The notes under the pieces were generated by a model. The model was not told where the DNA came from, did no database searches, and saw only the letters and a program-made list of their open reading frames with translations. Of a stretch of 48,132 nucleotides of DNA, positions 10,978 through 28,018 are shown piece after piece. Position 1 is the first letter of the stretch. Every line of letters begins with the position of its first letter. Origin of the DNA: Ligilactobacillus salivarius DSM 20555 = ATCC 11741 (GTDB lineage: Bacteria; Bacillota; Bacilli; Lactobacillales; Lactobacillaceae); assembly GCF_001435955.1 (NCBI RefSeq), contig NZ_AYYT01000015.1:1-48132 (forward strand). The letters are read 5' to 3'. The position numbers were made by a program, and so were the translations under genes.

Positions 10978-12003
10978 ATGAGTAAATGGAACAGTATTAA
11001 AATCGTAAAAGGCTCAGGTGGTTGGGGTGGTCCAATCGTTGTAACACCAACAGAAGAAAAACATAAAGTAGTTTATGTAACAGGTGGTAACAGACCAGAT
11101 ATTGTTGATACAATTGTTGAATTAACAGGTATGGAAGCTATTGATGGGTTTAAGACAGCAATTCCTGATGAAGAAATCGCATTAGCAATTGTTGACTGTG
11201 GTGGTACTTTACGTTGTGGTATTTACCCAAGTAAAAATATTTTGACAGTAAATGTTCTTCCAACAGGTAAGAGTGGTCCGTTAGCTAAATACATTACTCC
11301 AGAATTATATGTATCTGCTGTAACTCCAAAACAAATTTCATTAGTAAATGCTGAAGATGCAGAAGCAATTGTTAAACAACAAAATGAAAAGGCTACCAAA
11401 GAAGAAACTGCAGCTGATAAAGAAGATGGAATAGATACTTCTAAAACATTGACACAACAAGGTCATGGTGGTGGATTTATCGCTAAGATTGGTATTGGTG
11501 TAGGTAAAGTTGTTGCTACATTTAACCAAGCTGCTAAGGAATCAGTACAAACAGTTTTGAATACAATTATTCCATTTATGGCATTCGTTGCTTTGCTAAT
11601 CGGTATTATCATGGGTTCCGGTATTGGTAACTGGTTTGCTAAAATCATGGTACCTCTTGCAGGTAACGTTTGGGGATTGATGATTTTAGGTTTCATTTGT
11701 TCATTGCCATTCTTATCACCATTACTTGGACCAGGTGCTGTAATTGCCCAAGTTATCGGTACTCTAATTGGTGTTGAAATTGGTAAAGGTCATATTCCTC
11801 CACAATATGCATTACCAGCATTGTTCGCTATCAATACTCAAAATGCTTGTGACTTCATTCCTGTTGGTTTAGGTCTTGAAGAAGCTAAGCCAGAAACAGT
11901 TGAAGTTGGGGTTACATCTGTATTGTACTCACGTTTCTTAAACGGTTTACCTCGAGTATTTGTAGCATGGTTAGCTAGTTTCGGATTATATTCAGGAAAA
12001 TAA
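10978..12003 (+). CDS. srlE: PTS glucitol/sorbitol-specific EIIBC component
   Basis: This 341-residue protein joins an N-terminal EIIB domain (about 1-170), whose likely phospho-cysteine is Cys74 in [10 protein letters not shown], to a membrane EIIC domain (about 185-341) starting after a charged linker. Motifs such as [10 protein letters not shown] and the pair [12 protein letters not shown] and [16 protein letters not shown] are characteristic of SrlE. It transfers phosphate from EIIA to sorbitol during uptake. The ribosome binding site is TTGGAGG. Confidence 0.93.
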
Positions 12004-15480: not shown

Positions 15481-15506
15481 AAAATATTAGAATTGAATAA
15501 TTGATG

Positions 15507-15540
15507 AAGACACTAGAGAAATCTGGTGTCTTTTTTATTT
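15507..15540 (+). terminator. terminator after the EIIC-like gene
   Basis: An 11-base stem (15507-15517 with 15522-15532, one G-T pair), a four-base loop and a long T-run. Confidence 0.85.
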
Positions 15541-15562: not shown

Positions 15563-15580
15563 GTAATTAAAAAAAATTAC
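15563..15580 (+). repeat. operator-like repeat, copy 1
   Basis: GTAATTAAAAAAAATTAC has inverted arms GTAATT/AATTAC around six A. An identical copy lies at 15638-15655. The pair brackets the promoter of the half-HsdS/HsdM-like operon. Confidence 0.75.
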
Positions 15581-15590
15581 AAAAAAAGTG

Positions 15591-15619
15591 TTGTAAATAA
15601 TATCGCACGGTGATATTAT
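15591..15619 (+). promoter_or_regulatory. promoter with inverted repeat in its spacer
   Basis: TTGTAA (15591-15596), 17-base spacer, TATTAT (15614-15619). A perfect 8-base inverted repeat, ATAATATC and GATATTAT (15597-15604 with 15612-15619), fills the spacer and the -10, so this promoter looks heavily controlled. Confidence 0.65.
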
Positions 15620-15637
15620 AAATTTGTAAGTTGATAT

Positions 15638-15655
15638 GTAATTAAAAAAAATTAC
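15638..15655 (+). repeat. operator-like repeat, copy 2
   Basis: Identical 18-base copy of the element at 15563. It ends shortly before the ribosome binding site of the first gene, about 19 bases after the -10. Confidence 0.75.
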
Positions 15656-15672
15656 TAAAAGGAGTGAAGAAT

Positions 15673-16239
15673 ATGAAATTAAAAGAACTGATAAAAATTG
15701 AAAGTGGAGTGAATACCGTTCGCTTAAAAGATAATGAGTATGAACTATATACACTTGAAGATGTGAATTATGACTTAGGTCATGGAGAGGATTATAAGCA
15801 TGAAGTGAGTTATAGAAAAAATATTGTAGCAAGAGGAGACATTGTAACCAATACAGTAGGAAATATGACTAGTATTGTACATACTAAAAATTCTGGTAAA
15901 TTGCTTAATCAAATTTTTATGAAGTTAAGTATTAATAATAAAGAAATATTAGATCCATGGTATTTATGCTACTTATTAAATGAATCGGAATATATCAAAT
16001 ATCAAGAAGCAAGTATTATGGGTGGATCAGTCATTAAAAAGCTGACTAAAGTAAATCTTGAAAATTTAGAGGTTAATTTACCAACTATTGATGAACAAAG
16101 AAAAATAGGTGAAGCGTATAAAGAGACTTTAAGAAAATATACTTTAATAACTGAGAAAGCAGAATTAGAAAAGAATTTGTATTTACAAATGTTAGGGGAA
16201 AAAGATCTTAATAATAGGAGTGTAGTTGAAAATGGATAA
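15673..16239 (+). CDS. single-TRD (half) HsdS-like DNA specificity protein
   Basis: The ATG at 15673, after AAAAGGAG at 15657-15664, gives 188 residues. The protein is one target-recognition domain of the HsdS family followed by a helical arm: KLKELIKIESG, the TRD core with GDIVTNTVGN, then IMGGSVIKKLTKVNLENLEVNLP and IDEQRKIGEAYKETLRKY at the dimerising helix. Normal HsdS has two TRDs in about 400 residues. A half-size subunit would have to dimerise and read a palindromic bipartite site. It overlaps the following HsdM-like gene by eight bases, so the two are translationally coupled. A lone fragment is less likely because the gene has its own promoter and partner. Confidence 0.75.
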   Translation: MKLKELIKIESGVNTVRLKDNEYELYTLEDVNYDLGHGEDYKHEVSYRKNIVARGDIVTNTVGNMTSIVHTKNSGKLLNQIFMKLSINNKEILDPWYLCYLLNESEYIKYQEASIMGGSVIKKLTKVNLENLEVNLPTIDEQRKIGEAYKETLRKYTLITEKAELEKNLYLQMLGEKDLNNRSVVENG

Positions 16240-17647
16240 AGAATTGGAAAAGAGATTATCAGTTAATAATTTTGAAATAAGTAACGAAGAATATATGATT
16301 AAAATAGCTTTCTATCTAGAAATTTCTAAAAAGGCATTAAGAGCTTTTGATTCTACGGAAGATATTTTAGAAACTCAAAAACAATATGAAATGAGCGATG
16401 GTACAGTTGGAAATACACAATTAGTGATTGATCCTAAAGATACATACTATCATCATTATCTATTATATAAGGATAGAAAATTTAAGTATGAAGATCTTAT
16501 AAAATCACTTTATAAAATAGAAAAGAAAAATCCTGTTTTAAAAAATATGTTTAAAGATATTAAAGGAAGCAATATGGCAGGACGTGTAGCTGATTTGATA
16601 TTCGCTATGATGTATCTGAAAAAGGAACCGAGTTTTGAAGAACTATTAGACTGGATTGCAAGAAGTTCTGGATCAAGATCTGAATTTAGTATTACACCAT
16701 TAAGTATCAATAAATTAATGGTAAAACTAGTTGGTTCTTTTAAAGAAAATATTACAGTATATGATCCAGCTGTAGGAACAGCAAATTTATTATTAAATGT
16801 AGATAGTGAAAATTTCGAAAAGAATAAATATTATGGACAAGATATTAATAAATTTGTGTTAGAAATTGCTAAAATGAATGCTATCTTACAAGATATAAAT
16901 AGTAAGAACATTGAATTGAAATTAGGGGATTCATTAAATAGTAATTGGAATTTTGGCAAGGCTGATGTCGTAGTAGCTGATATGCCATTAGCGATGAGTT
17001 GGAGACCAAGTAAAGACTTAGAACAAGATAATCGCTATAAAAATTATGGAAAACTCCCTAATAAAAATGAATGGCCATTTATTCTAGAAGGTTTAGATAA
17101 ATTATCAGCTGATGGTACGATGATAGCACTATCAGCTCAAGGAATTTTATTTAGAGCTGCTAAAGAATATAAGGTTAGACGAAAACTTTTAGAAGATGGA
17201 ATGATAAAAGCAGTTATCCTATTACCAGAAAAACTTTATTATGGAACAAGCGTAGCAACCTGTTTATTAGTACTTAAAAAGTCATCTAAAGACAGAGATG
17301 TATTCTTCATTAATGCAAGTAAGGAATATCAGAAAGTAAAATCAAATAACGTTTTAACAGATGATAATATTGGAAAGATTGTAGATGTATTTAACAATCA
17401 AAAAGAAATAAAGAATTTCTCTCGTAAAATATCTTTTGAAGAAATACAAAAAAATGATTTTAATTTAATAATGGCTCGCTATATTAATCAATATCAATTT
17501 CAAGAAAAGCTAAATCAACAAAAAGAATTTGAAAATTTGACAAAGATTGATAATAAGATAGGCAATGTTGATGAGAAACTAAATAAAATAATGAGGGAAC
17601 TAGTAACTGACGATAAATTAAAGGAAATAGAAAAATTAATTAAGTAA
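16232..17647 (+). CDS. HsdM-like N6-adenine methylase-family protein with degenerate catalytic motif
   Basis: Read from the ATG at 16232 (471 residues; a TTG at 16226 is possible). It has the HsdM layout: helical N-terminal domain (about 1-150), Rossmann methylase core with an SAM motif DPAVGTANLL at residue 178 (canonical DPxxGSGGxL), and a C-terminal coiled coil. The catalytic motif IV, normally NPPF or NPPY, reads ADMPLA (D250-M-P-L253): the first proline and the aromatic residue are missing. Methylation may therefore be lost while DNA and SAM binding are kept. It is paired with a half-HsdS and not with an HsdR. It shares little with the canonical hsdM that follows, so it is not a recent duplicate. 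Confidence 0.75.
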   Translation: MDKELEKRLSVNNFEISNEEYMIKIAFYLEISKKALRAFDSTEDILETQKQYEMSDGTVGNTQLVIDPKDTYYHHYLLYKDRKFKYEDLIKSLYKIEKKNPVLKNMFKDIKGSNMAGRVADLIFAMMYLKKEPSFEELLDWIARSSGSRSEFSITPLSINKLMVKLVGSFKENITVYDPAVGTANLLLNVDSENFEKNKYYGQDINKFVLEIAKMNAILQDINSKNIELKLGDSLNSNWNFGKADVVVADMPLAMSWRPSKDLEQDNRYKNYGKLPNKNEWPFILEGLDKLSADGTMIALSAQGILFRAAKEYKVRRKLLEDGMIKAVILLPEKLYYGTSVATCLLVLKKSSKDRDVFFINASKEYQKVKSNNVLTDDNIGKIVDVFNNQKEIKNFSRKISFEEIQKNDFNLIMARYINQYQFQEKLNQQKEFENLTKIDNKIGNVDEKLNKIMRELVTDDKLKEIEKLIK

Positions 17648-17667
17648 AAGTCAATTTTTGAATATTA

Positions 17668-17750
17668 GACACAGGAGAAATTATAAAATTTATGCAAATA
17701 AAGCGATATCAAAGATAATTTTGCATAAATTAGAAAATTGGTCCTGTGTC
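17668..17750. repeat. 83-base nested inverted repeat between the HsdM-like gene and hsdM
   Basis: Outer arms GACACAGGA (17668-17676) and TCCTGTGTC (17742-17750) enclose inner arms AATTTATGCAAA (17687-17698) and TTTGCATAAATT (17720-17731); both pairs are perfect. There is no T-run after it, so it is not a simple terminator. A small mobile element (MITE), an RNA processing structure or an operator cluster are possible. Confidence 0.6.
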
Positions 17751-17768
17751 GAAATCGCGAATTTAGGT

Positions 17769-17796
17769 TTTACAAGGAAAAAGTTACTGATAAAAT
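17769..17796 (+). promoter_or_regulatory. candidate promoter of hsdM
   Basis: TTTACA (17769-17774), 16-base spacer, TAAAAT (17791-17796), followed by AAAGGAG (17814-17820) and the hsdM ATG at 17828. Confidence 0.5.
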
Positions 17797-17827
17797 AATT
17801 ATGATAGTCATATAAAGGAGTAAGACA

Positions 17828-19348
17828 ATGGTAGAAAAAACAAAAGAATTAAATATTGAACGTGATTTGTGGCAGGCTGCTGATAAATTACGTGGAAGTA
17901 TGGATGAATCAGAATATCGTAATGTTGTATTAGGATTAATCTTCTTGAAATATGTATCAGATTCATTTGAAGAAAAAAGAGATGAGATTTTAAACTCTGA
18001 TTATCCAGAAGAAGTTGAAGAACCAGATGCATATTTAGCTGAAAATATTTTCTGGGTACCTAAAGAAGCTCGTTGGAGTGTAATTCAAAAAGCAGCTAAA
18101 ACACCACAAGTCGGTGAAATTATTGATAATGCGATGGATGCTATTGAAAAAAATAACAATTCACTCCGTGGGGTATTGAATAAAAATTATGCTTCTCCAG
18201 ATATAGATAAAACTAGATTAGGTGGTGTAGTTGATTTAGTTTCAAATATTAGTTTAAAAGGTGATGGAAAGTTAGATTTACTAGGTCGAGTTTATGAGTA
18301 TTTCTTGAATAAATTCGGTTCTGGGAAAACTGGCGGTGAATTCTATACTCCACAATCTATTGTTAAAACTTTAGTAGAAATGATCGAACCATACAGAGGA
18401 AGAATTTACGATCCATGTTGTGGTTCTGGTGGAATGTTTGTTCAATCAGGAAAATTTGTTCAAGAACATCAAGGAAGGATTGGAGATTTATCAATTTATG
18501 GGGAAGAATCCAATCCTACTACTTGGAAATTAGCTAAGATGAACTTAGCAATTCGTAGAATAGACAACAATCTTGGACAATATCAAGGTGATACTTTTAC
18601 TAATGACTTACATAAAGGTGAAAGATTTGATTTTATTTTAGCTAATCCACCATTCAACATTAAAGACTGGAGTGGTGAAAAGTTAAGAGAAGATGCTCGT
18701 TGGAAATATGGTGTTCCACCTGTAGGAAATGCTAATTATGCTTGGATTCAACATATTATTAGTAAGTTAACTCCAGATGGAAAAGCAGGATTTGTCCTTG
18801 CTAATGGTGCATTGTCTACATCTACTAAGGAAGAATATGCAATTCGTAAAGCAATTATTGAGGATGATAAGATTGATGCTATTGTTGCAATTCCTGACAA
18901 AATGTTCTATACAACTGGTATTCCAGCTTCTCTATGGTTTATTGATATGGATAAATCTTCAGATGATGAAAGAAAAAGAAATGGTGAAACCTTATTTATT
19001 GATGCTCGTGAATTAGGGGAAATGTTAGACAGAACTCACCGTGGATTCTCTGACGAAGATATAAAGAAAATTGCTGATACTTATCATGCTTATCGTGGTA
19101 CAAATGATAAAGAATATAAGGATATAGCTGGTTTTTGTAAGGTAGCTAAGATTGAAGACATTGCTAAAAATGACTATGTCCTAACTCCAGGTCGTTATGT
19201 AGGTTTAGCTGAAAAAGAAGATGATGGTGAACCATATGAAGTAAAAATGGAAAGATTAACTAATGAATTAAAAGAACAATTTGAAGAAAGTAATAAATTA
19301 CAAGCTGAAATCAAAGAAGTATTAAAGGAGTTAGGGTATGAGATATAG
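17828..19348 (+). CDS. hsdM: type I restriction-modification methyltransferase HsdM
   Basis: This 506-residue protein is a canonical HsdM: an N-terminal DLWQAADKLRGSMDESEYRNVVLGLIFLKYVSDSF segment, the SAM-binding motif DPCCGSGGMF, and the catalytic LANPPFN. With HsdS it methylates adenines in a bipartite target and protects the host DNA. The last 11 bases overlap the start of hsdS, the normal coupled arrangement. Confidence 0.97.
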   Translation: MVEKTKELNIERDLWQAADKLRGSMDESEYRNVVLGLIFLKYVSDSFEEKRDEILNSDYPEEVEEPDAYLAENIFWVPKEARWSVIQKAAKTPQVGEIIDNAMDAIEKNNNSLRGVLNKNYASPDIDKTRLGGVVDLVSNISLKGDGKLDLLGRVYEYFLNKFGSGKTGGEFYTPQSIVKTLVEMIEPYRGRIYDPCCGSGGMFVQSGKFVQEHQGRIGDLSIYGEESNPTTWKLAKMNLAIRRIDNNLGQYQGDTFTNDLHKGERFDFILANPPFNIKDWSGEKLREDARWKYGVPPVGNANYAWIQHIISKLTPDGKAGFVLANGALSTSTKEEYAIRKAIIEDDKIDAIVAIPDKMFYTTGIPASLWFIDMDKSSDDERKRNGETLFIDARELGEMLDRTHRGFSDEDIKKIADTYHAYRGTNDKEYKDIAGFCKVAKIEDIAKNDYVLTPGRYVGLAEKEDDGEPYEVKMERLTNELKEQFEESNKLQAEIKEVLKELGYEI

Positions 19349-20480
19349 TAAAATTTCGGAATCACTGTATATAAAAGGAAGAATAGGATGGAAAGGTTTG
19401 AAAAAGAAGGAATATTTACAGGAGGGAAGTTATAGGATAATTAATGGATCAAATATAGTTGATAATAAAATTGATTGGTCAAATTGTGGTTATATATCTA
19501 AGGAAAGATATGACGAATCTGAAGAGATAAAGCTAAAAGAAGGAGATATTTTAATAACTAAGGATGGAACAATAGGAAAGGTGGCTATGGTTAACAAGTT
19601 AGATAAACCTAGTACAGTTGCTTCAGGGTTATTTATATTACGTAATATAAATCTAAAAAAATGGGATACATTATATTTATTCTATTATTTACAATCTTTT
19701 AAATTTAAAGAGTTCATCTATTCTAGAACTTCAGGTAGTGTGATACCGCATTTATACCAAAGAGATTTTGAAGAATTAATGATACCAGAATTATCTTTAA
19801 AACAACAAAAACAAATTTCACAGAAGATACATTCAATTCAACAAAAAATTGATTTAAATAATAAAATAAATACTAATTTACTTGAACTAGGTTTAGAACT
19901 AATATCAAATATTAACTTTGAAAACTATCAGTCTCTTAATAAGATTGTGGAAGTAAAAGATGGAACACATTCTTCACCAGCTAGTACTTTAAATGGATAT
20001 CCATTAGTAACATCTAAAGCTATTAAAGGAACATCTGTGGACTTTTCACAAACAAAAAATATTAGTGAAGCTGACTTCACTGAAATTAATAAAAGAAGTT
20101 TAGTTGAATATCACGATATTTTGATTAGCATGATCGGTACCGTAGGAATAGTACATTTAGTTACTGAAAATCCAGTAAAATATGCAATAAAAAATGTGGG
20201 ACTAATAAAATCTTCAGATAAAAAGTTATTATCACCATTTTTATATCTTTATTTATTAAGTTATTATGGACAAACATATATAAGAAAACATCTTTCTGGG
20301 AGTACACAACAGTTTATTTCCTTAACCAATTTACGAAAAATGCCTATACCAATATCATCAGATATTCCAGCTAAATTAATTGAAAAGCTAAATACTATAG
20401 TTTTACAAATAGAACATAACTCAAACGAGAATAATACTTTGAATTCAATAAAAAATGTTCTTTTAGAAAAATATTTTTAA
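19338..20480 (+). CDS. hsdS: type I restriction-modification specificity subunit HsdS (active copy)
   Basis: This 380-residue protein has two target-recognition domains: TRD1 (about 1-160), a central conserved helix (HSIQQKIDLNNKINTNLLELG, about 165-185), and TRD2 (about 190-350) with a C-terminal helix. It sets the DNA target of both methylation and restriction. The 13-base repeat at 19868-19880 encodes the NTNL of the central helix, exactly the seam at which TRD2 can be exchanged. A second inverted copy lies six bases after the stop codon. It starts within the end of hsdM. Confidence 0.93.
   Translation: MRYSKISESLYIKGRIGWKGLKKKEYLQEGSYRIINGSNIVDNKIDWSNCGYISKERYDESEEIKLKEGDILITKDGTIGKVAMVNKLDKPSTVASGLFILRNINLKKWDTLYLFYYLQSFKFKEFIYSRTSGSVIPHLYQRDFEELMIPELSLKQQKQISQKIHSIQQKIDLNNKINTNLLELGLELISNINFENYQSLNKIVEVKDGTHSSPASTLNGYPLVTSKAIKGTSVDFSQTKNISEADFTEINKRSLVEYHDILISMIGTVGIVHLVTENPVKYAIKNVGLIKSSDKKLLSPFLYLYLLSYYGQTYIRKHLSGSTQQFISLTNLRKMPIPISSDIPAKLIEKLNTIVLQIEHNSNENNTLNSIKNVLLEKYF
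19868..19880 (+). repeat. HsdS recombination site A
   Basis: AAATACTAATTTA in the plus orientation inside hsdS, at the start of the TRD2 cassette. The match with site C extends upstream to 28 identical bases. Confidence 0.8.
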
Positions 20481-20485
20481 CTTGC

Positions 20486-20498
20486 TAAATTAGTATTT
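20486..20498 (-). repeat. HsdS recombination site B
   Basis: Inverted copy (TAAATTAGTATTT on the plus strand), six bases after the hsdS stop. With site A it brackets the active TRD2 cassette as an inverted repeat. Confidence 0.7.
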
Positions 20499-20499
20499 G

Positions 20500-20527
20500 T
20501 TGAAAGAATCTACTTGTAATGTATAAT
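20500..20527 (+). promoter_or_regulatory. promoter of the recombinase gene
   Basis: TTGAAA (20500-20505), 16-base spacer, TATAAT (20522-20527); it begins two bases after site B, so recombination at B would alter what lies upstream of it. Confidence 0.7.
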
Positions 20528-20552
20528 TTCACTAAAAACGAGGTGCAATTGT

Positions 20553-21521
20553 ATGACTACAGTAATTAAGGAAATTATACAAGCGATGCTAAAGGATTTA
20601 ACAAATGAACAATTAATTAAATTAAAGGAAGTATTGAAAGAAAAGCTATCAAGTAATAGTAAGCAAACCAGACAAAAAAGTAATGAGGAATATTTACAAG
20701 ATTTTCTAGCTGCGAAGCGTGTAGAGGGCTGTTCTGATAGGACAGAGAAGTATTATAGAATGACACTTGATACATTTATGAATGAGATTCAAAAAAATAT
20801 TCAACAAGTTACGACAGAAGACCTGCGTAAATATCTAACTGATTATCAGAAAAAAAGAAATTCAAGTAAGGTAACAATTGATAATATTAGGCGAATATTT
20901 TCAAGTTTCTTCTCGTGGCTCGAAGATGAAGATATTATTATTAAAAGTCCTGTGAGACGTATACACAAAGTAAAAACACCAAATAATATTAAAGAAACAT
21001 ACTCAGATGAAGAGTTGGAAAAACTTAGAGATAATTGTACAGAAATTAGAGACTTAGCACTAATTGATTTACTAGCTTCCACAGGTATGCGTGTAGGGGA
21101 GTTAGTACGATTAAATAGAGATGATATAGATTTTGAAGAACGAGAATGTGTAGTATTGGGTAAAGGAAATAAGGAACGAATAGTATATTTTGATGCTAGA
21201 AGTAAATTGCACCTGAAAAACTATTTATTAAGTAGAAGTGATGATAATAACGCACTGTTTGTGTCTTTAAAAAAACCTCAAAAAAGAATGTCAATAGGTG
21301 GAATTGAAAATAGAATTAGACAATTAGGTAGAGAGATAGGTATCACTAAGGCGCATCCACATAAGTTTAGAAGAACATTAGCTACTAATGCAATTGATAA
21401 GGGAATGCCAATTGAGCAATTACAGAAATTATTAGGACATGAAAGAATAGATACAACCTTGCATTATGCAATGGTGAAACAAACAAATGTAAAAATAGCA
21501 CATAGGAGGTATGTAGGGTGA
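20553..21521 (+). CDS. tyrosine recombinase (XerC/D-like), probable HsdS shuffling enzyme
   Basis: This 322-residue integrase has an N-terminal SAM-like core-binding domain (about 45-125) and a catalytic domain with the complete set Arg180 (STGMRVGEL), His270-x-x-Arg273 (HKFRR), His296 (LGHERIDTT) and Tyr305 (LHYAM). It sits between the active hsdS and the silent hsdS halves, the position of recombinases that invert S-gene cassettes in lactobacilli and streptococci. I infer that the 13-base repeats are its crossover sites. It has its own promoter and the ribosome binding site GAGGTG. Its stop overlaps the start of the next half-gene. Confidence 0.92.
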   Translation: MTTVIKEIIQAMLKDLTNEQLIKLKEVLKEKLSSNSKQTRQKSNEEYLQDFLAAKRVEGCSDRTEKYYRMTLDTFMNEIQKNIQQVTTEDLRKYLTDYQKKRNSSKVTIDNIRRIFSSFFSWLEDEDIIIKSPVRRIHKVKTPNNIKETYSDEELEKLRDNCTEIRDLALIDLLASTGMRVGELVRLNRDDIDFEERECVVLGKGNKERIVYFDARSKLHLKNYLLSRSDDNNALFVSLKKPQKRMSIGGIENRIRQLGREIGITKAHPHKFRRTLATNAIDKGMPIEQLQKLLGHERIDTTLHYAMVKQTNVKIAHRRYVG

Positions 21522-21976
21522 CGAGATATAAGTTAGGAGAAATTGTAGACATAAAGTATGGGAAAGATCATAAAAAATTAAATGCAGGTAGAGTTCCAGT
21601 ATATGGGACTGGAGGAATAATGCGGTACGTAGATAATTACTTATATGATGGGGAGAGTGTATTAATACCAAGAAAAGGATCATTGAATAATATTTATTAT
21701 GTTGTTGGAAAATTTTGGACTGTTGATACTATTTTCTGGACTATAATTAATAAAAATATTGTTCTCCCTAAATACTTGTTCTACTTTTTGAAAAGAATAG
21801 ACTTTGAAAAATTAAATGTAGGTAGTGCAGTACCAAGTTTAACACAGAAAATATTAAATGAAATCCAAATAGACGTACCAAGTATAGAAAAACAAAAAGA
21901 TATAATAGATAAAATAAGTGTATTTGAAAGAAAAATCAATTTAAATAATAAAATAAATACTAATTTAGTAGCTTAG
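21518..21976 (+). CDS. silent HsdS half-gene (N-terminal TRD cassette)
   Basis: This 152-residue frame starts at the GTG 21518 with AGGAGG at 21504-21509. It encodes one TRD (TRYKLGEIVDIKYGKDH, GKFWTVDTIFW, VPSLTQKILNEIQIDVP) and the central helix up to NNKINTNL, and then stops. The break is exactly after the 13-base site C. The start region TAGGGTGACGAGATATA resembles that of the active hsdS (TAGGGTATGAGATATA at 19332), a second homologous seam. Inversion between sites C and D would extend it in frame into the minus-strand cassette (NTNL-EKISTEFF) and give a complete second HsdS. Confidence 0.8.
   Translation: MTRYKLGEIVDIKYGKDHKKLNAGRVPVYGTGGIMRYVDNYLYDGESVLIPRKGSLNNIYYVVGKFWTVDTIFWTIINKNIVLPKYLFYFLKRIDFEKLNVGSAVPSLTQKILNEIQIDVPSIEKQKDIIDKISVFERKINLNNKINTNLVA
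21955..21967 (+). repeat. HsdS recombination site C
   Basis: AAATACTAATTTA in plus orientation, at the end of the N-terminal half-gene and also at the stop of the minus-strand half-gene. Confidence 0.8.
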
Positions 21977-22575
21977 CTAGTAATTGTTTTTTTATTTGTC
22001 TTAATATCAAATTTTGTTTGCGAATCTTAATTTTATTATCAAATATTGGGCCTAATAAGTTGTTCAATTTGGTCAACTCATCATCATCAGGAATTATGGC
22101 AAATGATTCTTTTAGATTACTACGCTTTATATGACCCATAGTAGTTGCTTTAGATTTTGCAATCAATTGAAATTCTTGTAAATAATATTTAGTCCACTCA
22201 TAAATAAACCAACTAGGGTAATCGTTAGAAGTAACTTTAAATAGATGCTGATTAAGTCCAGCTTCATTTCCTGCCCATAAATCCAATAATAGAGTACCTG
22301 ACCAAGAAAAAATAATGTCACCAGTATTGATTTGCACAGATTCATCTATATCTTTTCTACATAAATCTGAATTAGAATCTGTATGCCCTTGATTTAATTC
22401 TCTGATTTTTACTACAGGTAAAGATTCTTTAATATTAACTGGTCTAAATTTTTGCATTGCCAATCCATTTTTGTAATTTGCGATACTATCAAGAGATTTT
22501 TTCTTATCGTTATGAGTATTACTTAACCAATTTAGAAAAAATTCGGTTGATATCTTTTCTAAATTAGTATTTAAT
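21960..22575 (-). CDS. silent HsdS half-gene (C-terminal TRD cassette), opposite strand
   Basis: The minus-strand frame is open from 22640 to 21960, but the HsdS-like part begins at the seam near 22575 (FDKLNTNLEKISTEFFLNW). It continues through a TRD (SIANYKNGLAMQKF, VKIRELNQG, GDIIFSWSG, LNQHLFKV, MGHIKRSNLKESFAIIP) to the C-terminal helix LRQIKKQLLAKLLN. There is no ribosome binding site or sensible start, so it is a promoterless store of sequence. Inversion between sites A and D (about 2.7 kb) would place it in frame behind TRD1 of the active hsdS. Confidence 0.85.
22547..22575 (+). promoter_or_regulatory. candidate promoter of the Kiwa genes spanning the recombination junction
   Basis: TTGATA (22547-22552), 17-base spacer, TTTAAT (22570-22575). 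The -35 lies inside the invertible segment, the -10 partly in site D. After A-D inversion the -35 position would read AACCTA; after C-D inversion CTAGCT. The promoter would exist only in the orientation seen here. It is a sequence match only; AT-rich DNA gives chance hits. Confidence 0.4.
22560..22572 (-). repeat. HsdS recombination site D
   Basis: Inverted copy (TAAATTAGTATTT on plus) at the start of the minus-strand TRD cassette, 30 bases before the kwaB start codon. Confidence 0.8.
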
Positions 22576-22602
22576 TTATCAAATTTAAGGAGATGAATTT
22601 GT

Positions 22603-23565
22603 ATGAAAGATTTTAGGTTAGATGAATACATAAACGACATAAATGCTGTATATGAAACAGAAGAATTTATTAAAAGAACAGAAATCTTTTTAATTAAATT
22701 GGATAAGAAGGTAAGCGAAATATATAAACAAGACAGCGGTGATGATAGTAAAAAATTACTATTAGACGCTTTGATAGAAAAATTAAACGAATCAAGATTT
22801 AAAAAAAGAGAAGTAGTATATTACGATGCAGTCACTAATAAAAAGAATACTCATGAATTAGTAAAAGTTGACGATTATCCAAATATTAATGAGAAATTGA
22901 AAGAGTTTAACAATAGTTTATCTAGTACTAAAGGTCTTAAAGAAGATAAATTTCGATTATATGCAATGACCTTGAAAACGAATAAGCATAATTATAAAAT
23001 AATTGGAAGTTTCACAAATACTTTTGCACTTAAGAAAAAATTTTTAATTGGAAATTTTTCTGATTCAAAGATTAAATTAAATCAAAGAAATGATATTATT
23101 GGTTTCAATAAGAAGATAGAATTATTTGTCATAGATGACAAATATATATTAATAAATCAAGCTGAATCGAAATTTGAATCATTATTTAAAATGAATATTT
23201 TATTTTCTAATCAAGCGACCCAAATTTTAAGAGAAAATGATAGGATAAAAGAAATTTTTGATATTGAAACATGTGATAAGTTAAGTAAAAAGGTAGAACT
23301 TGGTAAAAGAATGGCAACGAGACTTATAAAAATTGTCAGTGATACTGATAGATTTAATAAGACAATCGATAATATTGATAAAATAAAGGATATTATTGAT
23401 AATAATAATCACAAATTTCATGAAAAAGTGAAAGATGTAAACTATAGAAATGGAAAATTATCTGTACCAGATGGGAAGGAAGTTCAATTATTAGATGCAA
23501 TATCGGATGCATTCTATCAAGCTGTTATTTCAGAAACAGAGAATGTAGATGAAACGAGGATGTAA
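22603..23565 (+). CDS. kwaB: Kiwa defence protein KwaB-like (DUF4868)
   Basis: This 320-residue, soluble, highly charged protein resembles DUF4868/KwaB, the DNA-binding effector of the Kiwa antiphage system. It has an N-terminal helical part, a beta-rich central region (KIELFVIDDKYILINQAESKFESLFKMNILF, the DUF4868-type strand pattern) and a C-terminal helical part with SKKVELGKRMATRLIKI. The assignment rests on remembered family features and on the neighbour, which is a KwaA-like membrane protein three bases downstream. The ribosome binding site AAGGAG is at 22587-22592. From memory Kiwa is usually ordered kwaA-kwaB; here the order is reversed. Confidence 0.78.
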   Translation: MKDFRLDEYINDINAVYETEEFIKRTEIFLIKLDKKVSEIYKQDSGDDSKKLLLDALIEKLNESRFKKREVVYYDAVTNKKNTHELVKVDDYPNINEKLKEFNNSLSSTKGLKEDKFRLYAMTLKTNKHNYKIIGSFTNTFALKKKFLIGNFSDSKIKLNQRNDIIGFNKKIELFVIDDKYILINQAESKFESLFKMNILFSNQATQILRENDRIKEIFDIETCDKLSKKVELGKRMATRLIKIVSDTDRFNKTIDNIDKIKDIIDNNNHKFHEKVKDVNYRNGKLSVPDGKEVQLLDAISDAFYQAVISETENVDETRM

Positions 23566-23568
23566 AAA

Positions 23569-24150
23569 ATGAAAAATGACTATATTTCAAAATGGTTTTT
23601 GTTTATTACATCGTATCTACCACTATATATATGGCTATTACTAAGTAACATTAATTATGTCGAACTATTGAAACTAAATAAAAAAGATTTAGAAATATCT
23701 ACTAAAAAATTATTTTATTTTGTTCTGGTAGTATTTATTATTATTTCTATCGTTGAGTTAATCCAATTATTTAAAAGTAGTGGATCTGAGATAAAAAAAA
23801 TACCGAAAGAAATGGAGGCAACTCCTGAAAGCGATGGTTTAATGAATTACATAGTAACTTATATAACTCCTCTTGTATCATTTGACTTGAGTGATATAAA
23901 ATCTGTTATTATGAATATAGCTTTATTTTTGTTGATAGGCTTAATGTATGTAGGCAGTAGTGCAACATATTTAAATCCGGTACTAGGTATATTTGGGTTT
24001 AAAATTTTCGAAGTTTCTGGCTTTCCACAAGTTCACCATATTATTTCAAAATTTTCATATGACTATTTAGAAACAATAAAAAATAGAGGAGATGAAGTGA
24101 TTAGTTATCATTTAGGAGATGGTATTTGTATTATAAAATCTAAAAAATAA
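23569..24150 (+). CDS. kwaA: Kiwa defence membrane protein KwaA-like
   Basis: This 193-residue protein has four predicted membrane helices (about 8-28, 47-67, 95-112 and 117-137) and a soluble C-terminal tail. The start (YISKWFLFITSYLPLYIWLLL), the central YIVTYITPLVSFDLSD and the end (FGFKIFEVSG) follow the KwaA pattern, the membrane sensor that detects phage at the envelope and partners KwaB. It is coupled to kwaB (three-base gap). hsdR follows 80 bases later. Confidence 0.75.
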   Translation: MKNDYISKWFLFITSYLPLYIWLLLSNINYVELLKLNKKDLEISTKKLFYFVLVVFIIISIVELIQLFKSSGSEIKKIPKEMEATPESDGLMNYIVTYITPLVSFDLSDIKSVIMNIALFLLIGLMYVGSSATYLNPVLGIFGFKIFEVSGFPQVHHIISKFSYDYLETIKNRGDEVISYHLGDGICIIKSKK

Positions 24151-24230
24151 GGTGATTTAAAAAAGTAATTTTTTTGAGATATAATTTTAATATAAGATAC
24201 TGTTTTCACAAAAAAAGGAGTGAGACTCAT

Positions 24231-27200
24231 ATGCCAAAAGGTTATCTAACAGAAGAAGCAGTAGAAGATTTAGCATTAGATGAACTAGAAAAATTAGGGT
24301 ATTCAATATTTAAAAGTGAAAGTTATACATCGCCTAATAAGCAAATAGATGCAGCTAGGAATAAAGATCATACAGTTGCTATTTTATTAACTAACTTAGA
24401 TAAAGCTTTGCGTAGACTTAATCCAGGATATGAGGATGAAATATACAAAGAAGCAGTACGTAATTTTATTAGATTAGCTGATAACCCTAATATGATGATT
24501 AATAATCATTATCTTCATAAGTTATTGGTTGAAGGAATAAGAATCAAAACAAGTGTAAACGGGGAAAGTCGTACAGTGACTTTGTATGCAATTGATTTTA
24601 ATAACGTAAATAATAATGAATTTATTGCTACTAATCAGTTTACATTTGAGGGGCGACATGAGCGTAGACCAGATGTAACTCTATTTATTAATGGATTACC
24701 ACTTATTACTTTTGAGTTTAAGGATATTTCAAACCCTAATGTAAGTATTCGTGATGCATATAATCAATTTGAAACATACAAAGAAGAAATTTCAGATTAT
24801 ATGAAATATAATGAGATTCTGATCATTTCTGACGGTATAAATGCTAGAGCTGGTTCAATAACAGCTGGATTTGATCGTTTTATGAGGTGGAGAGCACCTA
24901 AAAATGTAACAGATACTGCAGAATTAGAATTAGTTACATTAATCAAATATATGCTCGAACCAAGTGTTTTATTGAATTTGATCGAAAACTTCATTATTTT
25001 TGAAACTAATGGAGATTCTACGGTTAAAATACTAGGTGCTTATCATCAATATTACATGGTGAATAAGGCAATAAAAGCTGCTAAAAGAGCAATTAAAAGT
25101 TCAGAAGATAAGCGTATAGGGGTAGTATGGCATACTACTGGTTCTGGTAAGAGTTTATCAATGGTATTTTTTGCAAGTATAGCTGCTCGTAAATTGAATA
25201 ATCCAACTATGTTGGTAATTAATGATCGCAATGATCTAGATGATCAGTTGTTTGATACTTTTTCAGCAGCACATGAGTTTCTACGACAGACACCAGAGCA
25301 CGTTGAAACTAGAGATGATTTGAGAATTGCAATGGATAAAAATTCAGGTGGAATTGTATTTTCTACGATTCATAAATTCTATCCAGAGTTTGAAAAAGGT
25401 GAAAAAGAAATGCCAGTGCTATCTGAAAGAAGTGACATTATTGTTATTGCTGACGAAGCACACCGTACTCAATATGGATTAACAGCTAAACAAACTAAAA
25501 ATGGTATTAGATATGGTTATGCTAAGTATTTACGCGATGCTTTACCTAATGCTTCTTTCATTGGCTTTACAGGAACACCGATTTCAACGGAAGATAAGTC
25601 AACAATCAACGTCTTTGGTAACTATATTGATATTTATGATATTACTCAAGCTGTAGATGACGATGCTACTGTTAGAATTTACTACGAAAGTAATGTTTTC
25701 CCACTAAAATTAAAAGAGGGAACAGAAAAAGAGTATCAAAAGTTAATTAAGGAAGCTAATTTAGATGATGATCCTAATTTGGAAGAAAATAAACGCCGAA
25801 ATCGTGAATTTTCAAGATTAGAAACATTAGCTGGAGCAAAATCAAGATTACAAAGCATTGCTAAGCATTTTGTTAATCATTTTGAAAAAAGACAAAAAGA
25901 GACATTTGGTAAATCAATGATTGTTGAAATGTCTAGAAGAAATGCTGTTAATTTATATAATGAGATTATTAAATTGCGTCCAAATTGGGCAAGTGATGAT
26001 TTAGAAAAGGGCAAAATTAAGATTGTAATGACATCTTCAGCAGCTGATGGACCAGAATTAGCTAAACATCAGACAAGCAAAGCTGATCGTAGAATCTTGC
26101 AAAAAAGGATGAAAGATAACAATGATGAACTTCAGATAGTGATCGTTGTTGATATGTGGTTGACTGGATTTGATGTTCCATCTATGAATACAATGTATAT
26201 TGATAAGCCGATGAAAGGCCATAATTTAATCCAAGCAATCGCACGTGTAAATCGAGTATTTAAAGATAAAGACAGTGGTTTAATTGTAGACTATATTGGA
26301 ATTGCTGAAAGCTTAAAATCAGCCTTGAATATATATTCAAAGAAAGATCAGAGTCAAGTTGGCATCAACATGAAAAAAGCTATAGCAGTTTTAAAGGAAA
26401 AATACGATATTATTACGAATGATTTCTTGTATGGTATAGATTACTCAGACTTTAAGTCAGAAAAAAGTAGTGTACGAATTAGCGTTACTAATCGTGTAGC
26501 TAATGAAATTCTTAAACAAAAAGATGATAGTTGGAGAAAATTTATAGATGTAGTTACTGAATTGCAAAAAGTATATGCTATAACTGCTACTCAGGAAGAA
26601 GCTCAAGTATATGGAGAAGAGATTGCATTTTTCAAGTCTGTAAAAGCCTTAATAGTTAAGTTAAAGAGAAAACCAATTACAGGTGGGGGAAATGGTAAAG
26701 ATCCTAAAGAAGTTGACTATAGACTTAAGCAATTTATAGATCAATCTGTTATTTCTGAAAAAGACGTTGATATTTATGAACAATTTGGAATAAATAAGGA
26801 AAGCATTGAATTAATTTCAGATGAATTCTTGGATGCTATGAAGAAAGAGCCTGAAAAAGATTTAGCAATTGTTGTACTGGAAAATGTTTTAAAAGGTAAA
26901 GTAAAAGCAATGTTGAAAGTTAATCAAACTGCATCCAAACAGTTTACTGAAATGTTAAAGAAATCCATTGATGATTACAATAATCGTGGTATAACAAGTG
27001 AACTGGTTATTCGTCAACTTATAGAAATTGCTAAGAAAATTAGAGAACAACAAAATAAAGGTGAAGACCTTGGATTAACTCAAGAAGAAGTAGCTTTTTA
27101 TGATGCTCTAGCTGACCATAAGAAAGCAGTGGAAATGTTAGGTGAAGAAACACTACAACTTATTGCTAAAGAACTAGTAAAAGTCGTGCAGAGAGAAGCT

Positions 27201-27356
27201 GGAATAGATTGGGAAAAACGAGAAAGTGTCCAAGCTAAGATGCGAAGAGAAGTACGAAGATTACTTAGAAAATACGGCTATCCACCTGATTTTCAAAAGC
27301 AAGCAGTAGAAACTGTAATAGAGCAAGCAGAATTAATGGCTTCAAATAATAGTTAG
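24231..27356 (+). CDS. hsdR: type I restriction endonuclease subunit HsdR
   Basis: Read from the ATG at 24231 after AAAGGAG (24214-24220), giving 1041 residues; an upstream TTG at 24174 has no such site. It has the N-terminal nuclease motif (about 146-162, D...ITFEFKD), Walker A TTGSGKS (about 302-308), a DEAH box (about 406-409), TGTP and later superfamily-2 helicase motifs including IQAIARVNRV, and a long helical C-terminal region that binds HsdM. It translocates DNA and cuts unmodified targets. It is separated from hsdM and hsdS by the recombinase, silent cassettes and the Kiwa pair. Confidence 0.96.
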   Translation: MPKGYLTEEAVEDLALDELEKLGYSIFKSESYTSPNKQIDAARNKDHTVAILLTNLDKALRRLNPGYEDEIYKEAVRNFIRLADNPNMMINNHYLHKLLVEGIRIKTSVNGESRTVTLYAIDFNNVNNNEFIATNQFTFEGRHERRPDVTLFINGLPLITFEFKDISNPNVSIRDAYNQFETYKEEISDYMKYNEILIISDGINARAGSITAGFDRFMRWRAPKNVTDTAELELVTLIKYMLEPSVLLNLIENFIIFETNGDSTVKILGAYHQYYMVNKAIKAAKRAIKSSEDKRIGVVWHTTGSGKSLSMVFFASIAARKLNNPTMLVINDRNDLDDQLFDTFSAAHEFLRQTPEHVETRDDLRIAMDKNSGGIVFSTIHKFYPEFEKGEKEMPVLSERSDIIVIADEAHRTQYGLTAKQTKNGIRYGYAKYLRDALPNASFIGFTGTPISTEDKSTINVFGNYIDIYDITQAVDDDATVRIYYESNVFPLKLKEGTEKEYQKLIKEANLDDDPNLEENKRRNREFSRLETLAGAKSRLQSIAKHFVNHFEKRQKETFGKSMIVEMSRRNAVNLYNEIIKLRPNWASDDLEKGKIKIVMTSSAADGPELAKHQTSKADRRILQKRMKDNNDELQIVIVVDMWLTGFDVPSMNTMYIDKPMKGHNLIQAIARVNRVFKDKDSGLIVDYIGIAESLKSALNIYSKKDQSQVGINMKKAIAVLKEKYDIITNDFLYGIDYSDFKSEKSSVRISVTNRVANEILKQKDDSWRKFIDVVTELQKVYAITATQEEAQVYGEEIAFFKSVKALIVKLKRKPITGGGNGKDPKEVDYRLKQFIDQSVISEKDVDIYEQFGINKESIELISDEFLDAMKKEPEKDLAIVVLENVLKGKVKAMLKVNQTASKQFTEMLKKSIDDYNNRGITSELVIRQLIEIAKKIREQQNKGEDLGLTQEEVAFYDALADHKKAVEMLGEETLQLIAKELVKVVQREAGIDWEKRESVQAKMRREVRRLLRKYGYPPDFQKQAVETVIEQAELMASNNS

Positions 27357-27424: not shown

Positions 27425-28018
27425 GACCTAAGCTTTGTTAGTATATAAGTGTACCGATGAAGCTAGTGGATAAGGTGTGACAAGCCGCCTAGCCATACGT
27501 CTCTTAATAACTACTATGACGAAATATACGGATACGTTTATTTTTTCTAATTTCCACTTGGGTAGTACTAATTGGGAGCAACGAAAAAAAGTTGTGTAGA
27601 GAGAAGCAAGGGGACTCATATCTGAAACTAAGACACTTGCCGTCAGGGATTCGCAATATACCATCTTTAGTTAATTAAGGCTGATTACCTTAGGAACCAA
27701 CGAAGAATATCAATTAAGAATTCGTGTCGTGAAGTTGTGGTGATGCAACTATAACTGACGAGTAAGGTTTGAGTAGCCAAAATCGACAATCTTATATTAA
27801 CAGAAATATGGACATTACACATGTTTGGTGAAAATTGGATAGGAAAAGGTCTATGCCCTGAACTTGAAATGCGGACTAGGTCATGGAAGTTGCTAGCCAT
27901 GATGTGCTAGTCTGATTCAGTAGTCTAATAAGTCCAGATACAAGAGTATCCCACGTAAGCCAATACGCGTCGGTTTACATAATTTTTAGTCAATGCAAAT
28001 TTTGCGTTGGCTATTTTT
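27425..28018 (+). ncRNA. large structured non-coding RNA (probable ROOL/L. salivarius lncRNA type)
   Basis: This ~600-base stretch has no plausible gene, is clearly less AT-rich than its surroundings and is dense in hairpins near its 3' end. There is a nested stem, GACTAG/CTAGTC (27874-27879 with 27907-27912) around CATGG/CCATG (27882-27886 with 27897-27901); GATAC/GTATC with an AAGA loop (27937-27950); and GTAAGCC/GGTTTAC (27955-27961 with 27972-27978). A terminator follows at 27988-28017. Size, location and probable host fit, from memory, the abundant long RNA of L. salivarius megaplasmids and the ROOL family. The 5' end is a guess; TATAGT at 27414-27419 could be its -10. The name is an inference from context, not from a covariance search. 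Confidence 0.65.
27988..28017 (+). terminator. terminator of the large RNA
   Basis: AGTCAATGC pairs with GCGTTGGCT (27988-27996 with 28004-28012, with G-T pairs), followed by ATTTTT. Confidence 0.8.

Follow-up and report, generated by a model that had tools for sequence, protein, structure and literature searches.

A two-gene module encoding a stand-alone half-HsdS (S') and an HsdM-like protein (M') was identified in a 48,132-nucleotide stretch of Ligilactobacillus salivarius DSM 20555 = ATCC 11741 (contig NZ_AYYT01000015.1). The whole of this stretch is called the window, and coordinates refer to it unless another locus is named. The promoter of the module is flanked by two copies of the palindromic element GTAAT-N8-ATTAC, hereafter called a site. 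A previous interpretation of the letters alone (the sequence-only reading) had described this pair of genes behind a doubly flanked promoter, and the observation was confirmed. The contig appears to represent an L. salivarius megaplasmid, judged from its closest relatives; strain 2D contains an M' 99.6% identical to that of the window, with the same gene order.

Layout of the S'M' module

A terminator-like hairpin (15506-15533, + strand; terminator scan) ends the unit of the upstream phosphotransferase system gene. Motif scans and alignment place putative operator 1 (15563-15580) 5' of the -35 box and operator 2 (15638-15655) between the -10 box and the start codon; both are unstranded. The promoter-like sequence between them, TTGTAA-17-TATTAT with an extended -10 (15591-15619, + strand), was found by a promoter scan. 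The match by itself proves nothing, since the scan gives 15 promoter-like sites in the window versus 16.9 in shuffles; its position is kept in the alignment of relatives. An 8-base inverted repeat, ATAATATC-N7-GATATTAT (15597-15604 and 15612-15619, unstranded), covers the spacer and the -10 box exactly as the sequence-only reading had described. This repeat is kept in the window's type of module and absent from a second type described below, and it was set aside as a general element because it is restricted to one type.

The two flanking copies are identical. GTAATTAAAAAAAATTAC occurs exactly at both operators, with nothing further in the window within three mismatches; at least two matches at that tolerance also occur in 19 of 100 shuffles, which is not unusual. 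The form GTAATT-N6-AATTAC is expected 0.01 times per window, is found twice in none of 100 shuffles, and occurs in the 1.98-Mb genome solely at 15563 and 15638. The form GTAAT-N8-ATTAC has eight sites genome-wide, four of which are the operators of two module copies; the single site is not enriched, as a reversed control pattern gives 11.

The S' gene (15673-16239 including the stop, + strand) encodes a protein of 188 amino acids with a single target-recognition domain: one Methylase_S domain is present, and the second recognition domain of an HsdS is missing. The M' gene (16232-17647 including the stop, + strand) encodes 471 amino acids with an N6_Mtase domain (PF02384, E = 2.3e-69). The two reading frames share 8 bases, in agreement with the coupling that had been claimed for them. 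The claim that the pair has no HsdR of its own stands for the pair itself. A complete type I system nevertheless begins 180 bp 3' of M'; its HsdM is only 29% identical to M' and is from another family.

The module is closed by a hairpin of 83 nt without a T-run (17668-17750, + strand), identified by RNA folding (z = -3.97 for 17645-17830) and sequence comparison. Its sequence is related to that of the element found at the corresponding position in modules of the second type. In L042 (9677-9710) and L052 (11739-11772) only 34 nt are present, apparently through loss between two direct repeats. A covariation test on 11 rows (7 distinct) found 98.9% of cells paired but did not reach significance, the result being no better than shuffles, and no RNA function is therefore claimed.

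Two module types, their putative operators and their cassettes

A second copy of the module is present in the same genome (contig C11 of G000), with an M' 53% identical to that of the window. Among plasmid records, five from L. salivarius contain an M' 94.9-99.6% identical to that of the window and 26 an M' at 49.5-52.7%. Twenty-one of these 31 records were fetched; together with the window, the second genome copy and contig L033 they gave 24 loci, seven of the window's type and 17 of the second type. The M' proteins of the two types are about 52% identical to each other and the S' proteins 69%. L033 was the one contig returned by a search of genome contigs for M' (96% identical to the window's). 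It is filed in a metagenome-assembled genome named Candidatus Scybalomonas excrementigallinarum and is probably mis-binned.

Both sites are present around the -35 and -10 boxes in all 24 loci, which come from L. salivarius and the one metagenomic contig, and are spaced 63-75 bp start to start. In an alignment of the 22 distinct upstream sequences, each of the two sites has an invariant GTAAT and AATTAC; the AGGAG of the ribosome-binding site and most of the -10 region do not vary either, whereas the spacers and most flanks of the sites do. The sequence-only reading had named GTAATT-N6-AATTAC as the operator; the paired element was borne out at every locus, and its conserved form proved to be GTAAT-N8-ATTAC. 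A third GTAAT-N8-ATTAC within PDC-M33A (about +3,250 from S', 7/7 PDC-M33 loci) was set aside as conserved coding sequence.

The best solved relatives of M' are 3lkd and the M subunit of EcoR124, and alignment to solved HsdM places the ADMPLA of M' where EcoR124 M has SNPPYS. In the window M', the NPPY of both relatives is DMPL, LPHG is SAQG and FYTP is SITP; DPAVGTANLLL is retained. Motif IV is DMPL or DIPL in the window's type and DPPM or DPPI in the second type, and the catalytic NPPF/Y of type I methyltransferases is absent from 23 of the 24 copies, the other copy being broken. Across the aligned M' (13 of 24), LPHG is replaced by SAQG or VVQG and FYTP by SITP, SFTP or DYTS, and the S-adenosylmethionine (SAM) site motifs DPAxGTA (DPAxGTAxLLL) and GQ[DE] are retained. 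Six of the seven loci of the window's type gave a median ratio of nonsynonymous to synonymous substitution (dN/dS) of 0.17 for M' and 0.11 for S', and 12 of the 17 second-type loci gave 0.11 and 0.09, respectively, so both proteins are maintained. Three changed motifs under purifying selection thus support the suspicion, already voiced from the letters, that the pair no longer methylates and that M' has lost catalysis. M' could still bind SAM, because type I enzymes use SAM as a cofactor of DNA binding. The comparisons lent no support to the sensing of SAM depletion, which the sequence-only reading had also raised.

In strain IBB3154 (L054, 10001-11393), M' is split into two annotated pieces, and both operators and S' are intact. 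No relative of M' was found in the viral contigs searched; the best 30 of 45 phage-record matches are at most 34% identical, and many are unannotated.

Different defence systems are found behind the module. In the six loci of the window's type with full flanks (the window and L035-L039), a type I system follows; L033 stops within hsdM. The second type precedes a type III restriction-modification (RM) cassette in three loci (L040, L054 and L055), a BREX cassette in four (L041 and L047-L049) and a PDC-M33 cassette in seven (L034, L043-L045, L050, L051 and L053), which is interrupted by a group II intron in L044 and L045. The remaining second-type loci contain an IIL-type methyltransferase/helicase/GIY-YIG set (L042), a helicase/HNH set (L046), and a Schlafen-type helicase with a MazG-like protein (L052). 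Cassettes were called from record annotation and, in L034, L040, L041, L042, L043, L046 and L052, also by scanning selected proteins for known families; annotation is the sole basis for three of the BREX loci, two of the type III loci and five of the PDC-M33 loci. As far as gene order goes, the S'M' module is the constant header of different defence systems. A scan of the interval between M' and the start of PDC-M33A in L043 found neither a promoter-like nor a terminator-like sequence, so that read-through from the operator-flanked promoter would be the simplest source of the transcript. Both results are in line with the proposal that the pair controls adjacent defence genes.

Second-type loci have further features in common. 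An open reading frame (ORF) of about 80 amino acids, hydrophobic by eye, follows M' (the copy of L034 has no Pfam hit), and a divergent integrase gene lies 5' of the module in 16 of the 17 loci, the exception being L054, in whose table it does not appear. In L046, from about position 11800, a seemingly cut-off start of PDC-M33A lies between the module and the helicase/HNH set and looks like a trace of cassette replacement.

Half-HsdS genes and paired sites in other Bacilli

A profile of S' detected half-HsdS proteins in open frames of 176-209 amino acids in 21 of 301 Lactobacillaceae genomes (E ≤ 1e-12). A broader profile matched in 32 of 395 Lactobacillales genomes (E ≤ 1e-13), 26 of which have a frame of 187-230 amino acids at E ≤ 7.4e-25; six of its seven weaker places lie in frames of at least 412 amino acids. 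A third profile matched in 24 of 398 Bacilli genomes (E ≤ 1e-16), with 25 places in frames of 190-234 amino acids. In 16 of 20 Lactobacillaceae loci, S' stands with ordinary hsd genes, mostly in the order S'-M-S-R or S'-R-M-S (L089 shows hsdM alone and L091 hsdR alone); two loci have an altered M, one has no hsd gene nearby and one is at a contig end. L097, from another genus, has the order of the window, with S', an altered M and a type I system of the window's family. A motif table of four M' and 17 HsdM from other S' loci showed NPPY in 15 of the 17; the exceptions are L081 (DPPY, together with DSTIGTG) and L097 (HPPY, together with DPTMGVG).

The family includes the staphylococcal hsdS_short, as the search recovers the plasmids CP017461, CP013716, CP007679, CP054008 and CP068714 named in PMC10030836. 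S' has the features of that family, being a stand-alone conserved half-HsdS of about 190 amino acids directly before hsdM. In L135, a Leuconostoc plasmid, a half-HsdS of the S' family precedes a cytosine and an adenine methylase, and hsdM is not annotated in the stretch shown.

The paired sites were also sought without reference to genes. The exact double GTAAT site occurs at six places in five of the 395 Lactobacillales genomes, with none for a control pattern, and comparison with S' coordinates put all six directly upstream of S' genes. Within the genus it occurs in one of 26 genomes, at the two S'M' promoters of G000 (control 0). Pairs with any half-site were compared with dinucleotide shuffles: p ≤ 0.05 was reached in 8 of the 22 loci on which the idea was formed (Fisher 3.9e-7), in 9 of 20 further loci (Fisher 6.2e-7), and in 9 of 26 others (Fisher 5.9e-8), among which L144/L145 and L132/L133/L152 are close relatives. 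GTAAT-like pairs, by a score devised after the upstream sequences of the 20 loci had been read, reached p ≤ 0.05 in 14 of these 20 (Fisher 1.8e-14); the score was negative in L110, L112, L115, L116, L119 and L121.

Removal of 7 of 68 S' proteins at 85% redundancy left 61 promoters, to which fixed rules were applied. A score of at least 19 of 20 was obtained in 22 of the 61 versus none of 71 control promoters; AT-rich controls gave 0/50. All 71 were taken from the 20 Lactobacillaceae loci and selected for free upstream sequence, a condition that was not imposed on the S' promoters. Together with the conservation at the 24 loci and the six gene-blind matches, these pairs at other S' genes support the view of the sequence-only reading that the repeats are the module's own operators and the pair a putative regulator.

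The half-site differs among loci. GTAAT is found in L. salivarius and many others, GTAGT in staphylococci, L143, L147, L149 and L151 (the paired sites of the staphylococcal L132 and L133 have p = 0.040 and 0.026, respectively), GAAAT in L091, L109, L112, L120, L148 and L155, and ATATT in L078, L079 and L081; GCTAT, GATAT, ATAAA and ATACT occur in L156, L158, L080 and L082, respectively. S' identity tracks half-site similarity in the 39 loci scoring at least 18 (rho = 0.29, p = 0.0004), and of the 5 half-site positions, 4.48 are shared by S' pairs with 40% identity or more and 3.20 by those below 30%. Shared ancestry alone could account for part of this trend. The S'-R-M-S operons are mostly without a scoring pair. 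The S' promoters of L087, L088 and L089, which do not score, contain by eye one long palindrome or facing repeats rather than the 5-N8-5 form.

The sequence-only reading had tied its case to joint conservation of ADMPLA and the repeat pair, with homologues of intact NPPF/Y and unconserved repeats counting against it. At the L. salivarius-type loci the motif is altered in 23 of 24 and the repeats are kept in all. Homologues with intact NPPY do exist, and two of them (L084 and L086) share the pair, so that a general loss of the repeats was not found, though many relatives lack a scoring pair. As these relatives with intact NPPY also have the operator, it seems older than the loss of catalysis.

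Proposed autogenous control and alternative explanations

The reading preferred here, at a probability of roughly two in three, is that defence operons are under autogenous control by a module in which S' reads the DNA and, in L. salivarius, M' is a non-catalytic partner; the module would repress its own promoter. Two S' chains, each with one recognition domain, would join M' in a symmetric complex with GTAAT-N8-ATTAC as its recognition sequence. Site 1 is 5' of the -35 box and site 2 in the leader between the -10 box and the ribosome-binding site, which is the layout of a two-operator repressor; S'M' might bind both, possibly with looping over the 63-75 bp, and so repress the promoter of the module. 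It is the positions of the sites only that suggest repression rather than activation, and direct binding and read-through control are likewise deduced from sequence. Read-through past the closing hairpin would tune the cassette behind the module. M' would be a structural, possibly SAM-sensitive partner that no longer methylates; catalysis dropped once the module was freed from type I duty would be the natural reading of its changes. Candidate signals for lifting repression are phage infection, the SAM level and entry into a new cell.

A wider proposal is narrowly favoured. The half-HsdS of Bacilli would be the reader of a new class of regulator, using a type I recognition domain instead of a helix-turn-helix, for type I RM operons; in L. 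salivarius it would have been freed, with a non-catalytic HsdM, to head interchangeable cassettes, and the half-site would co-evolve with the recognition domain.

Several observations weigh against these readings. Thirty-nine of the 61 S' promoters score 18 or less, inside the control range. Low-complexity pairs account for three of the 22 high scores (L092, L111 and L122), and the high score of L078 does not come from its best-looking pair. The 5-N8-5 form and the distance limits were picked after the L. salivarius sites had been seen, and the promoter of L097 has no 5-N8-5 pair. The half-site trend loses strength when 22 loci (p = 0.053) or all 61 (p = 0.079) are taken instead. Since most relatives keep NPPY (15 of 17), the general mechanism does not include the loss of catalysis. 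The cassette of the window is preceded by a promoter-like sequence of its own (TTTACA-16-TAAAAT, 17769-17796, + strand; promoter scan) and may thus have its own promoter as well. With a foreign promoter in E. coli, M and the long S depended on hsdS_short for correct methylation, according to the available part of PMC10030836, so that in full systems S' has a second role that is not confined to its own promoter.

This last point leads to the alternative that survives best, although it is unlikely as a full account: S' would be a factor in the assembly or fidelity of type I methylation, the role proposed for hsdS_short, and the palindromes would be read by an unrelated regulator. In E. coli, methylation by M and the long S was poor and strayed from the motif when hsdS_short was missing, and hsdS_short alone was toxic (PMC10030836, in part); the ordinary hsd genes beside S' in 16 of 20 Lactobacillaceae loci fit such a role. 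The module, however, also precedes type III RM and BREX cassettes, where a long HsdS is not listed in the stretches shown. No other regulator gene was seen to recur at all these loci, the half-site follows S' similarity in one cut out of three, and the sites have the symmetric bipartite form expected for a half-HsdS dimer. The assembly role and the reading of operators are compatible and not mutually exclusive.

It is improbable that S'M' is an active orphan methyltransferase for which GTAAT-N8-ATTAC would be the methylated sequence and the sites an epigenetic switch at its own promoter. The retained DPAxGTAxLLL, the DPP of motif IV kept in the second type and the intact NPPY of relatives would fit it. 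Loss of the motif IV aromatic abolishes EcoKI activity. That residue is gone in the 23 unbroken copies, LPHG and FYTP are altered in the aligned copies, and half of the mere eight genomic sites are operators. The available part of PMC10030836 lists no symmetric motif for hsdSMS strains; a symmetric site of ten fixed bases is expected, by estimate, a handful of times per E. coli genome, too few for motif calling, so that the missing motif does not decide whether S'M methylates. More doubtful still is a decoy or dominant-negative role, in which S'M' would disturb type I assemblies of invaders or of the neighbouring system: a regulatory role through hybrid half/full HsdS dimers has been speculated for BlihIA (PMC12429846, in part), but the paired operators and the placement before type III RM and BREX would remain unexplained. 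Least probable are RNA hairpins acting in translation or termination, for although site 2 is within the 5' leader, site 1 is upstream of the promoter and not transcribed from it, yet has identical half-sites, and the half-site letters themselves are retained across the 24 loci.

The proposed autogenous control module has relatives in function. It shows conserved sites at its own promoter and different defence systems behind it, as expected of autogenous regulators of defence operons, and regulators with other folds are known to head defence islands. No helix-turn-helix or WYL domain was found in S' or M' by Pfam scan. Defence regulators with a WYL domain include BrxR and CapW. In the available parts of the respective papers, WYL-domain regulators (PMC9122601, PMC9122588), CapK/CapS (PMC13373217) and RptR (PMC12255303) likewise head defence operons and belong to other protein families, RptR binding a TAGCTA palindrome. 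The C proteins of type II RM systems and autoregulating methyltransferases, as far as described in the accessible text of PMC12707154, also control defence operons through sites at their own promoters, but C proteins have helix-turn-helix motifs.

By structure, S' is closest to hsdS_short of the staphylococcal hsdRSMS systems, which differs in having methylating partners, namely an HsdM and a long HsdS; the L. salivarius S' has a non-catalytic M' as partner and heads other systems (PMC10030836, in part). Putative promoters are named in the accessible text of that paper, and an operator or regulator role is not. Truncated HsdS dimers of EcoDXXI and EcoR124 have one recognition domain and palindromic sites like S', but they still methylate and are not regulators, and half-HsdS genes beside full ones have been published with their function unsettled (PMC10030836 and PMC12429846, both in part). 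Beyond the systems cited, operators for a half-HsdS or a regulator of this kind were not found among the matches listed in open-licence papers, and no paper with the GTAAT-N8-ATTAC motif strings was found in that literature.

The module would be a widely distributed candidate regulator with predicted operators, and it suggests a job for the unexplained staphylococcal hsdS_short. It would be a case of a restriction enzyme turned regulator, in which several unrelated defence systems share a single control header. If the recognition domains do read the operators, these would provide in vivo half-sites for the type I specificity code.

The cassette behind the module of the window was annotated by family scans. 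The genes hsdM (17828-19348, which has NPPF and, by comparison to M', belongs to another HsdM family), hsdS (19338-20480) and hsdR (24174-27356) are on the + strand. A gene for a XerA-like tyrosine recombinase (20553-21521, +), an hsdS fragment (21518-21976, +) and an inverted hsdS fragment (21960-22640, - strand) follow hsdS, and the set from 19338 to 22640 looks phase-variable. The Kiwa genes kwaB (22603-23565, +) and kwaA (23569-24150, +), identified by defence-family assignment, are nested within the type I RM operon (22603-24150), between the hsdS fragments and hsdR. Kiwa is present in two of the six fully flanked loci of the window's type, namely the window and, judged from two ORFs of equal lengths at the same place, L035; Kiwa genes are not annotated at that place in L036-L039. 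A ROOL RNA (RF03087, 135 bits, E = 6.7e-28) was detected directly 3' of hsdR (27438-27986, + strand).

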